Assembly: GCA_016839955.1 (NCBI GenBank) | Contig: JAEOTI010000194.1 | Location: 1 to 22,722 of the forward strand | Length of the DNA: 22,722 nucleotides | Direction: 5' to 3' | Origin: Candidatus Hodarchaeota archaeon | GTDB lineage: Archaea > Asgardarchaeota > Heimdallarchaeia > Hodarchaeales > YT1-057 | In this document: piece after piece, positions 461 to 2,799 of the stretch | Numbering within the stretch: the first letter of the stretch is position 1 | Layout of the letters: each line of letters begins with the position of its first letter | Translations under genes and position numbers: made by a program | The notes under the pieces: generated by a model | Told to the model about the DNA's origin: nothing | Seen by the model: only the letters and a program-made list of their open reading frames with translations | Databases searched by the model: none

Positions 461-676
461 CTAAGGGACTTTGATTTTTATCTGCCAAACGTCTCCGTCT
501 TCAAAAGTGGAAATAATTTCCATTTTTAGTGCTTGTGCTACCATTGGCACCTCAAATTTTGATGGTTCATGATTACCAATGATTTCCACAATTGTTCCAG
601 AAGGAGCGGTCTTTAAGGCCTTCCGTGTTTCGATTACTGGGATAGGGCATGTTTTTCCTCTCACATCAACTCTCAG
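461..676 (-). CDS. tusA: TusA/SirA-family sulfur carrier protein
   Basis: TusA-family proteins carry a persulfide on the first Cys of a CPxP motif and pass sulfur between desulfurases and acceptor pathways such as tRNA thiolation, molybdopterin and Fe-S cluster formation. The CPIPVIETRKAL segment matches the family signature (CPxPv..tkkal). It is followed by the usual GTIVEII and a C-terminal strand (GDVWQIKI). The total length of about 71 aa is normal. The family's first strand is L-D-x-R-G before CPxP. Starting at GTG 664 deletes it, whereas the CTG at 676-674 gives M-RVDVRGKTCPIP and overlaps the iscU stop as CTGA, with GAGG 4 nt upstream. I therefore prefer the CTG. It is the last gene of the HTH-iscS-iscU-tusA operon. 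Because the IscS homologue lacks its PLP lysine, the sulfur donor for this protein is unclear. Confidence 0.85.
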   Translation of the reverse strand: MRVDVRGKTCPIPVIETRKALKTAPSGTIVEIIGNHEPSKFEVPMVAQALKMEIISTFEDGDVWQIKIKVP

Positions 677-1095
677 TGATCCTCATCCTCCTGATTACTC
701 ATCGTTTCTTCAACAGAAATTCCGTTTCGATAATTTTTGATTGCATAATGGAGAGCATCTGCAGCAAGATTCGAGCAATGCATCTTAATGGGTGGAAGAC
801 CCTCAAGTGCTTCCGCAACGTTCGCATTCGTGATTTCAAATGCTTCATCAAGTGTCTTTTTCATTGCTAGCTCCGTTACCATACTAGATGTAGCTATTGC
901 TGCGGCGCAGCCAAAAGTCCTTACCTTAATGTCATCTAATATTTCATTACCGTTTTCATCTTTTTTTACTTTAATATAAACCCACATCAAGTCCCCGCAT
1001 GTTGGGTTCCCAACTTTACCAATCGCATCAGCATCTAGCATCTCTCCCATATTCTTTGGGTTTGTAAAATGTTCCATCACAGTTTTGGAGTACAT
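673..1095 (-). CDS. iscU: Fe-S cluster assembly scaffold IscU/NifU-N
   Basis: IscU is the scaffold on which [2Fe-2S]/[4Fe-4S] clusters are built from iron and sulfur before transfer to apo-proteins. All ligands are present: Cys33 and Asp35 in NPTCGD, Cys63 in the FGCAAAIATSS motif, and His106-Cys107 in KMHCSNLAADAL. The 140-aa length is typical for a stand-alone scaffold, and the tail (NQEDEDH) is short and acidic. The ATG at 1095 has GGAG about 11 nt upstream. The gene follows the IscS homologue by 28 nt and its TGA overlaps the start of the TusA gene, so the three are very likely co-transcribed and translationally coupled. The Asp in NPTCGD normally helps cluster release, and its presence argues for an active scaffold even though the IscS partner is unusual. 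Confidence 0.95.
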   Translation of the reverse strand: MYSKTVMEHFTNPKNMGEMLDADAIGKVGNPTCGDLMWVYIKVKKDENGNEILDDIKVRTFGCAAAIATSSMVTELAMKKTLDEAFEITNANVAEALEGLPPIKMHCSNLAADALHYAIKNYRNGISVEETMSNQEDEDH

Positions 1096-1123: not shown

Positions 1124-2329
1124 CTAAATTTGTCCCGTTTCTTTCCATTTTTTCATTAATTTTGAATCCATGGGGCTTATTTCTCGTAAACGAATTACTA
1201 CTTCTTTCAATGCATCTATAAAGTTATTTACATCGTCTTTTGTATTTCCAATTCCTAAAGTTAAACGAATAGATCCATGAGAGACTTCTTGTGGAATTCC
1301 TAATGCTGTTAACACATGACTCGCCTTAAGACGTTTAGTAGAGCACGCTGACCCCGTTGAGATGCTAAACCCTCTCATGTCAAGATGCAATAGGAGAGAC
1401 TCACCCTCTACAAAATGGATTAAGAATGATGCCACATGGGGAAGTCTATTTTTTCTTGGACCGGTTAGTTGAACATCCTGAATTTCATTTAATAATCGGT
1501 CAATCAAATAATCTCGTAGTTCGCGAATTTTATCTATTTCTGACCAATCAAATAATTCAATAGCTCTTCCAAAACCCACAATCCCAGGAATATTCTCAGT
1601 TCCCCCTCGTAAATTGCTCTCATATAAACCGCCATGTAATATCTTCGAAATTCTAGCACCTTTTCTTATGTACAGCGCACCAATACCCTTTGGGCCATAA
1701 ATAAGGTGTGATGATATAGTGAGTAAATCTATATTCATTTCTTCAACGTTAAGGGGAATTTTACCAAAAGTTTGGACCGCATCACTATGAAAGAGTATAT
1801 TTTTTTCTTTACAAATCAAACCGATTGTTTTAATATCTTGAATAGTTCCTATCTCACCATTTCCATGACTTATCGAAACGAGTATTGTATCTGGTAAAAT
1901 AGCTTCACGAACTTTATCAGGAGAAACAATTCCTTCAGCATTGGTAACTAAGTAAGTAATTTTGAAGCCTTCTTTCTCTAGCCACTCACATGTGTCTAGA
2001 ATAGAAGAATGTTCTATTTTACTAGTAATGATGTGATTACCTTTATTGGTTTTTCTGGCTTTATGAGCTACTCCTTTAAGAGCAAGATTGTTTGCTTCTG
2101 TCCCACCTGACGTGAAAATAATATCTTTCGGGTTAGCTCTTATTTCCTTTGCGATTTTAGATCGGGCATTAGAGATCGCTTGCCCTGCTTCAATCCCAAA
2201 CGAGTGACCATAATCTGAAGAAGCAAGACCGAATTTGGAGTTGAAAAAGGGGAGCATTTCTTGAATGACTTCTTCACGGACAGGAGTAGTATCCCCATAA
2301 CAGAAGTATGCTTGTTTCTCAGCTATCAG
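1124..2329 (-). CDS. iscS: IscS/NifS-like cysteine desulfurase homologue lacking the PLP lysine
   Basis: This is a class V aminotransferase-fold protein of the IscS/NifS family. From the preferred start it has 401 aa, close to E. coli IscS. Family motifs present are TSGGTEANNLALKG, the IEHSSIL histidine, HSDAVQ (the Asp/Gln that contact PLP) and the catalytic-loop Cys329 in STGSACSTKRL. The key departure is SSHLIYGPKGIGALY: Leu209 stands where nearly all members have the Schiff-base Lys (SSHKIYGPKG), encoded CTT rather than AAA/AAG. The N-terminal YLDxxATTP is also altered to YFCYGDTTP, and HANNEIG to HGNGEIG. An ATG at 2383 would add 18 residues inside the HTH gene without a ribosome binding site. 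AAAGGAGG at 2342-2335 instead points to CTG at 2329 (5 nt spacing). It lies between the HTH regulator and iscU. It may deliver sulfur atypically or act as a structural partner of IscU. Confidence 0.9.
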   Translation of the reverse strand: MIAEKQAYFCYGDTTPVREEVIQEMLPFFNSKFGLASSDYGHSFGIEAGQAISNARSKIAKEIRANPKDIIFTSGGTEANNLALKGVAHKARKTNKGNHIITSKIEHSSILDTCEWLEKEGFKITYLVTNAEGIVSPDKVREAILPDTILVSISHGNGEIGTIQDIKTIGLICKEKNILFHSDAVQTFGKIPLNVEEMNIDLLTISSHLIYGPKGIGALYIRKGARISKILHGGLYESNLRGGTENIPGIVGFGRAIELFDWSEIDKIRELRDYLIDRLLNEIQDVQLTGPRKNRLPHVASFLIHFVEGESLLLHLDMRGFSISTGSACSTKRLKASHVLTALGIPQEVSHGSIRLTLGIGNTKDDVNNFIDALKEVVIRLREISPMDSKLMKKWKETGQI

Positions 2330-2735
2330 TATTTCCTCCTTTGCTACTCTTACAGACAGAACAAGATTCTGAAGCACTACCATACTGTTTATGAAGCTCG
2401 CAAAGTAGTCCAGTCTCTTTGACGTGTCGGCAAAGGCGTTGGACTTCTCTAATTACTGATGTTTCTTCTGAAAGGACTCGATTTGCAGCCTCATCAATCT
2501 CCTGAAGGATAGATTCACTAAATGTAACCTTTGTTCCTCGAATTCCACTGAAATATTGAGAAACACATGCCTCAGTGACATTTAGCAGCTCTGCAATACG
2601 TTTTTGTGGTTGCTTTCGTTCTTTAAATTTCTGAGCTAAAGTTCTATGAATGGCAGGAATTACAAACCAAACTTCAATTTCTTGTGGATAGTGTAATTTC
2701 TGTCTTGGATTCTTCCTTTTATCCTGAGAACTCAT
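2319..2735 (-). CDS. XRE-type HTH regulator with C-terminal four-cysteine motif (COG2522-like)
   Basis: This is a probable DNA-binding regulator of the Fe-S operon that it heads. The N-terminal part (EIEVWFVIPAIHRTLAQKF, then PQKRIAELLNVTEACVSQYFSG) is the archaeal HTH family in which IPAIRRELA precedes a helix-turn-helix with the A-V-S-Q-Y-L-S-G recognition helix. The C-terminal half carries four cysteines, C102, C112, C125 and C128 (C-x9-C-x12-C-x2-C) with a nearby His, as expected for an Fe-S or zinc site. The ATG at 2735 gives 138 aa; a GTG three codons earlier is possible. Its 3' end contains the ribosome binding site of iscS and overlaps that gene by a few bases, so the two are coupled. 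By position it is a functional analogue of IscR sensing cluster status, which is inference. The upstream TTGTTAACATA repeats are a candidate operator. Confidence 0.8.
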   Translation of the reverse strand: MSSQDKRKNPRQKLHYPQEIEVWFVIPAIHRTLAQKFKERKQPQKRIAELLNVTEACVSQYFSGIRGTKVTFSESILQEIDEAANRVLSEETSVIREVQRLCRHVKETGLLCELHKQYGSASESCSVCKSSKGGNTDS

Positions 2736-2799
2736 CAGCAACACACCAAAAACTGTTATTATTAGATAGTTCTACAATTAACTAACAATACTGATCTTT

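Follow-up and report, generated by a model that had tools for sequence, protein, structure and literature searches.

A lysine-less IscS encoded with IscU and TusA in a Hodarchaeota archaeon, and its counterparts in other Asgard genomes

The IscS homologue encoded in the window (the whole analysed stretch of 22,722 nucleotides, contig JAEOTI010000194.1 of a Candidatus Hodarchaeota archaeon) has leucine at the position of the PLP-binding lysine, retains the mobile-loop cysteine and is encoded together with IscU and TusA. Proteins of this kind recur among Asgard IscS homologues, in which the lysine state has changed repeatedly. The window IscS most likely lacks cysteine desulfurase activity, and the evidence suggests a former enzyme that is now a docking or relay part in iron-sulfur cluster building. 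The reading that we prefer, and to which we give somewhat better than even chances, is that a desulfurase-dead IscS has been kept as the partner of IscU, with a loop cysteine that takes sulfur from TusA and/or ligates the nascent cluster.

The isc operon of the window and the lysine site of its IscS

Four genes are arranged on the minus strand in the order regulator, iscS, iscU and tusA (Table 1). The iscU product has the NifU_N domain with the three cysteines, the aspartate and the LPPxK motif of a scaffold. The tusA product scores well above the PF01206 cut-off of 28.6 bits, and its CPxP cysteine lies in CPIP. In the regulator, C112, H115, C125 and C128 were invariant among 15 aligned sequences. 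Searches of Pfam and NCBIfam (E 0.001) and of folds (E ≤ 0.001) gave no match for it; its HTH assignment is supported by weak Pfam matches of one relative, all below the cut-offs, and by a helical predicted model. The invariant Cys/His residues would be in keeping with a sensor of metals or clusters, and the protein is a possible cluster-sensing autoregulator. Two regulator relatives (P0124 and P0126) are on contigs that agree in length (3163 and 8476 bases) and source with those of two Leu-bearing relatives of the window IscS (P0006 and P0007), and so appear to be paired with them.

Table 1. Features of the isc operon in the window
Feature	Position	Strand	Basis
Putative HTH regulator, C-terminal Cys/His	2319..2744	-	ORF; overlaps the iscS start region with its stop
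iscS, Lys-less (Leu227)	1124..2383	-	PF00266, 251.5 bits; translation; alignment of relatives
Cys28 codon TGT, where the N-terminal motif usually has Asp	2300..2302	-	Alignment column
Leu227 codon CTT, PLP-lysine site	1703..1705	-	Column 227 is Leu in 8/8 window-clade rows
Cys347 codon TGC, mobile-loop Cys (STGSACS)	1343..1345	-	Cys in 8/8 window-clade rows
iscU scaffold	673..1095	-	PF01592, 139.7 bits; three Cys, Asp and LPPxK present
tusA, with CPIP	461..664	-	PF01206, 65.6 bits on 467-673; ORF from GTG

The window IscS has the domain of the class V, fold-type I aminotransferases and the catalytic cysteine of the mobile loop. The motif of the Schiff-base lysine (SxHKxxGPKG) reads SSHLIYGPKG, and the Leu codon lies inside the interval 1650-1760, where the sequence-only reading had placed it. 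That reading had counted at least two base changes from AAA or AAG to CTT; the bound holds and the exact number is three. Its descriptions of HSDAVQ and STGSACS as intact, and of the N-terminal motif as YFCYGDTTP, agree with the translation. The Cys28 column holds Cys in 7/7 window-clade rows with data, as against Asp in 86/86 near-canonical Lys forms with data. Two NCBIfam equivalog cut-offs were missed (TIGR02006, 400.4 of 643.2; TIGR03402, 461.9 of 530.75), which is not diagnostic because the Lys-bearing relative P0010 misses both as well. The conserved part of the protein begins near 2326, as judged from the alignment of relatives. At the aligned start (2300-2340, minus strand) there is no ATG, GTG or TTG; GGAGG is followed by AAATACTGATA, and translation must therefore begin at CTG or ATA, or inside the regulator gene.

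A protein search was run with the window IscS, and the best 120 of 7999 scored candidates were taken for alignment. In the resulting set of 121 proteins (query included) the site is Lys in 110 and Leu in 11, the latter being the window protein (P0001), its database copy (P0002), eight relatives (P0003-P0009 and P0013) and P0012. The eight relatives show 69-72% identity, and the named ones are from Hodarchaeales, Hodarchaeota and Thorarchaeota MAGs. P0012 and the Lys-bearing P0010 and P0011 are each about 58% identical to the window IscS. The Leu common to the eight relatives rules out a sequencing error, which had already been judged unlikely from the codon, and makes the substitution a fixed property of a clade. 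Site loss by itself could also point to decay or artefact, that is, to a pseudogene or an assembly error; with an open frame, a retained loop Cys and the same Leu in eight relatives, this is extremely improbable.

Within the window clade, the catalytic His is replaced by Gln in 6/8 rows (the window itself retains His), and Gly occupies, in 8/8, a column where 79/88 near-canonical Lys forms have Asn. T95, D201, S224, H226, T262 and R373 are unchanged in 8/8 rows and, with most other pocket residues kept, the proteins may still hold PLP. Retained desulfurase activity, in which PLP would be bound with no Schiff base or through a different lysine, would be in keeping with these unchanged residues, with the title of the Archaeoglobus fulgidus entry 4hvk (unusual L-cysteine desulfurase) and with the PLP in a figure of 4EB5 (PMC9769115, excerpt). 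We consider it very improbable, because an aldimine is impossible with Leu and the catalytic His is mostly replaced. Of the clade-specific invariant lysines, the one nearest to a motif is K247, three residues before HGG.

Lysine-less IscS in Asgard genomes and changes of the lysine state

The survey was entered through the genomes of five loci found by a scan of genome contigs. A total of 227 Asgard genomes were searched, 186 were matched at E ≤ 1e-40, and loci were fetched from 136 of the 186 with flanks of about 1.5 or 2.5 kb (shorter at contig ends). The association counts exclude L005, whose site is unreadable, and one frame that occurred twice, as well as L001-L003 and L006-L035, which duplicate later loci or hold other proteins; L226-L237 also stand outside them, as these regions were picked for the IscS-like or TusA rows that they contained. 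L005 (CP070665, 7977-8759), from a small genome, has an IscS frame of 261 aa that stops just before the lysine motif and represents a truncation or a frameshift.

Among 161 distinct Asgard IscS loci, 84 were Lys-less, 76 carried Lys and one had no readable site. The residues at the site of the Lys-less loci are D, E, L, R, H, T, V, S and A, and the loop Cys is kept in every locus with a readable column. When an Asp-type protein was used as query, the best 120 of 8000 scored candidates all carried Asp and the loop Cys. Lys-less forms were found in 83/136 sampled genomes, a fraction biased upward by the ranking profile (A1), in which 8 of 10 rows have Leu. Both kinds were present among the fetched loci of 22/136 genomes, and only the Lys-less kind in 61/136, where weaker matches are possible. 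The lysine is an imperfect marker, because ten Lys-bearing relatives have also lost residues of the PLP pocket. A divergent group with a WENGS or ENS motif has lost PLP-pocket residues while all members have the loop Cys; its lysine site is Arg in 12 rows (L183-L191 and L193-L195) and Lys in the ten relatives just mentioned.

For the tree, 131 rows were used (67 Lys-less, 64 Lys) and the site column and its neighbours were removed; it was a quick tree with no bootstraps and did not contain the IscS1 sequence of Methanosarcina acetivorans. The lysine state changes seven times on the best tree, and well-supported branches force at least six changes, parsimony counts that do not separate loss from gain; the lysine was probably lost rather than regained. 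A. fulgidus IscS falls in a group with Asp, Glu or Ser at the site. The window clade groups with other Asgard proteins, beside the pair formed by P0010 (Lys) and P0012 (Leu). A topology constrained to unite the window clade with the Asp group was rejected (AU p=0.004), which rules out simple membership of the window protein in the A. fulgidus clade and makes the lysine loss of the window clade look separate.

The A. fulgidus precedent, which the sequence-only reading had named, is real: entries 4eb5, 4eb7 and 4hvk hold one sequence with SSND at the site, and 4r5f is titled as the D199K mutant. This IscS is described as Lys-less and reported as inactive (PMC7585200, excerpt), and in the complex of IscS with IscU(D35A) its Cys321 sits on a [2Fe-2S] cluster (PMC9769115, excerpt). 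The window protein shows the features of this type in that it lacks the Schiff-base Lys and has the loop Cys and an adjacent iscU. A. fulgidus IscS differs in having Asp where the window has Leu, and Asn where the window has the preceding His. Q204 and R373 are kept by the window but lost in 51/51 and at least 48/51 rows, respectively, of the Asp group (A. fulgidus included). The proposal that the window pair works in the same way finds partial support in the absent Lys, the conserved loss and the adjoining IscU with its cluster residues, and falls short in clade membership. IscS1 of M. acetivorans (MA0808) is also reported without the catalytic Lys, and its gene is clustered with iscU1 and four uncharacterised genes (PMC7585200, excerpt); its loop, STGSACFS, resembles that of the Asgard Thr group.

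Linkage of tusA, dsrE and iscU to lysine-less iscS

Profile searches of the fetched flanks, on the same strand, served to compare the 160 Asgard loci whose site could be read. A tusA gene adjoins 53/84 Lys-less and 0/76 Lys loci (Fisher 1.1e-20); among loci whose flanks reach 1 kb or more on each side the counts are 44/67 and 0/65. A dsrE-like gene was found at 27/84 Lys-less versus 0/76 Lys loci, iscU at 69/84 versus 29/76, and the regulator at 10/84 versus 2/76. Weak TusA-like frames occur in two Lys loci, L170 and L172, with E values (1.5e-4 and 8e-4) that exceed the cut of 1e-4. In E. coli, tusA is located outside the isc operon. The mere presence of TusA was rejected as evidence, since 205/227 Asgard genomes have it regardless; adjacency alone is informative.

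In the 22 genomes with both kinds, tusA accompanies the Lys-less copy in 19 and never the Lys copy (sign test 3.8e-6), and IscU accompanies the Lys-less copy in 18 and the Lys copy in four (16 to 2 discordant; sign test 0.0013). These Fisher and sign-test values ignore kinship. The tree gives four independent pairs, of which zero to two (mean 1.5) show TusA the same way and none the opposite way (sign test median p 0.5), and TusA linkage changes only three times on it; the Fisher value thus overstates the link, because there are few independent origins.

The same 22 genomes bear on whether a Lys-less chain could form mixed dimers with a Lys-bearing IscS, or regulate it, its own site being a passenger. 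The active site of IscS is shared between subunits, and the presence of both kinds in these genomes would allow such pairing. The genomes in which only the Lys-less kind was fetched, and the position of IscU, which in two-kind genomes mostly stands by the Lys-less copy, count against it and render it improbable.

CPxP is present in all 54 operon TusA sequences (window included), one Cys column is common to all 27 DsrE-like proteins (the three scanned all match PF02635/PF13686), and the three Cys and the Asp of the IscU beside Lys-less IscS are kept wherever alignable (69 sequences). The gene order is iscS-iscU-tusA in the window and L001-L003, tusA-dsrE-iscS-iscU in the Asp types L083, L117, L124 and L128, and tusA-dsrE-iscS-iscU-ferredoxin in the Thr type L052. 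In L128 (1703-2482, minus strand) the IscU of the Asp-type operon carries a fused C-terminal half with similarity to a portion of thioredoxin reductase (48.5 bits to TIGR01292 over residues 125-258, below the cut-off); it might supply electrons for the reduction of sulfane sulfur.

No TusA was found at 31/84 Lys-less loci, among them the far Arg group (12/12) and a group with H, R, V or L at the site (10/10). At the ten H/R/V/L loci the regulator is present, and 9/10 of their genomes carry a second, Asp-type copy with TusA (L151 in G192, and eight more). Those eight come from the 12 chosen regions L226-L237, of which 8/12 have an IscS match, and DsrE is present in 7/8.

A surface patch matching R220/R223/R225 of E. 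coli IscS has a mean charge of 4.1 in 31 L/H/T/V/near-R rows versus 2.2 in 98 Lys rows. It was dropped, since the Lys-bearing P0010 is equally basic in the segment compared and the 51 Asp-group rows average 2.3.

Sulfur source and the role of the lysine-less IscS

Twenty genomes with an L/H/R/T/V-type IscS (far Arg group excluded) were checked for another source of sulfur. A Lys-bearing SufS-type protein was found in 19 of them, with its Cys readable in 18 and that part masked in G002. In G003 (single-contig chromosome CP070695, Leu-type IscS) no protein with both Lys and Cys was found among three SufS-model matches at E ≤ 1e-25. A Lys-bearing SufS could supply sulfur from cysteine. Cysteine sulfur via SufS and TusA and inorganic sulfur are therefore both possible; for T. 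kodakarensis and M. maripaludis, inorganic sulfur has been reported as a source for cluster assembly (PMC12442378, excerpt). Eight genomes (G186, G188, G189, G190, G192, G193, G194 and G213) also encode a Lys-less SufS-type homologue (L218-L225) with a GNIGLLGPP-like motif that retains the SufS Cys (RSGLLCAHP-like), and all eight have a Lys-bearing SufS; this is apparently a second family of Cys-conserved, desulfurase-dead proteins.

The loop Cys, conserved where the lysine is not, is likely to be a persulfide acceptor or, like Cys321 of A. fulgidus, a cluster ligand. As a ligand only, IscS would hold IscU and provide Cys347 as a transient ligand of the cluster; the sulfur would come from free sulfide, and TusA would serve another acceptor. 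The inactive A. fulgidus IscS and its cluster-bound Cys321, the Lys-less loci with no adjoining TusA and the SufS matches of G003 all agree with this account, which we hold to be rather unlikely, as it leaves the clustering of TusA and DsrE genes with Lys-less iscS unexplained. Sulfide, which the sequence-only reading had named as the source, remains a candidate and is not the sole one, with tusA in the same operon and TusA and DsrE repeatedly flanking Lys-less IscS.

The link to TusA and DsrE favours delivered sulfur. In the preferred reading, of a desulfurase-dead partner of IscU, Leu227 would be unable to form the internal aldimine and desulfuration of cysteine would be lost; the Lys-less IscS would be retained as the partner of IscU, and Cys347 would still reach the IscU site and handle sulfur from elsewhere. 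TusA, with a DsrE-like partner in sister operons, would bring sulfane sulfur to the pair. The sulfur would be received either by Cys347, in the opposite sense to the IscS-to-TusA transfer of E. coli, or by IscU, with Cys347 serving as a ligand of the nascent cluster. We put forward more tentatively, as possible and short of an even chance, that Asgard IscS has repeatedly been converted into a persulfide acceptor whose loop Cys is loaded by TusA (with DsrE) and then passes the sulfur to IscU.

In E. coli, TusA and IscU both dock on the IscS dimer and receive sulfur from it (PMC11302665, excerpt); this IscS is an active desulfurase with transfer from IscS to TusA (PMC9769115, excerpt), unlike the direction proposed for the window. 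TusA and DsrE-family carriers, as found at the Lys-less loci, also form the relays of tRNA thiolation and sulfur oxidation, but the account of those relays does not link them with a Lys-less IscS and its IscU (PMC3397948, excerpt; Pfam). Lys-less IscS was already known from A. fulgidus and from one M. acetivorans paralogue (PMC7585200, excerpt); the new part is the separate lysine loss and the link to TusA/DsrE. No description of the repeated Asgard lysine change or of this link, and no biochemical work on the window clade, was found in the literature searched, in which excerpts of PMC8351635, PMC10653786 and PMC6857552 contain nothing on the lysine; a printed precedent is possible.

Lys-less forms in many sampled Asgard genomes, tied to TusA/DsrE, make the sulfur source of archaeal clusters directly testable. 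The annotation 'cysteine desulfurase' in Asgard archaea is often no safe presumption of that activity, a warning that bears on inferences such as the Asgard association of NFS1 (PMC12872458, excerpt). If true, the acceptor reading would reverse the textbook direction of transfer between IscS and TusA, and the release of sulfur (by SufS, by a Lys-bearing paralogue or from inorganic sulfur) would be split from the assembly of the cluster.
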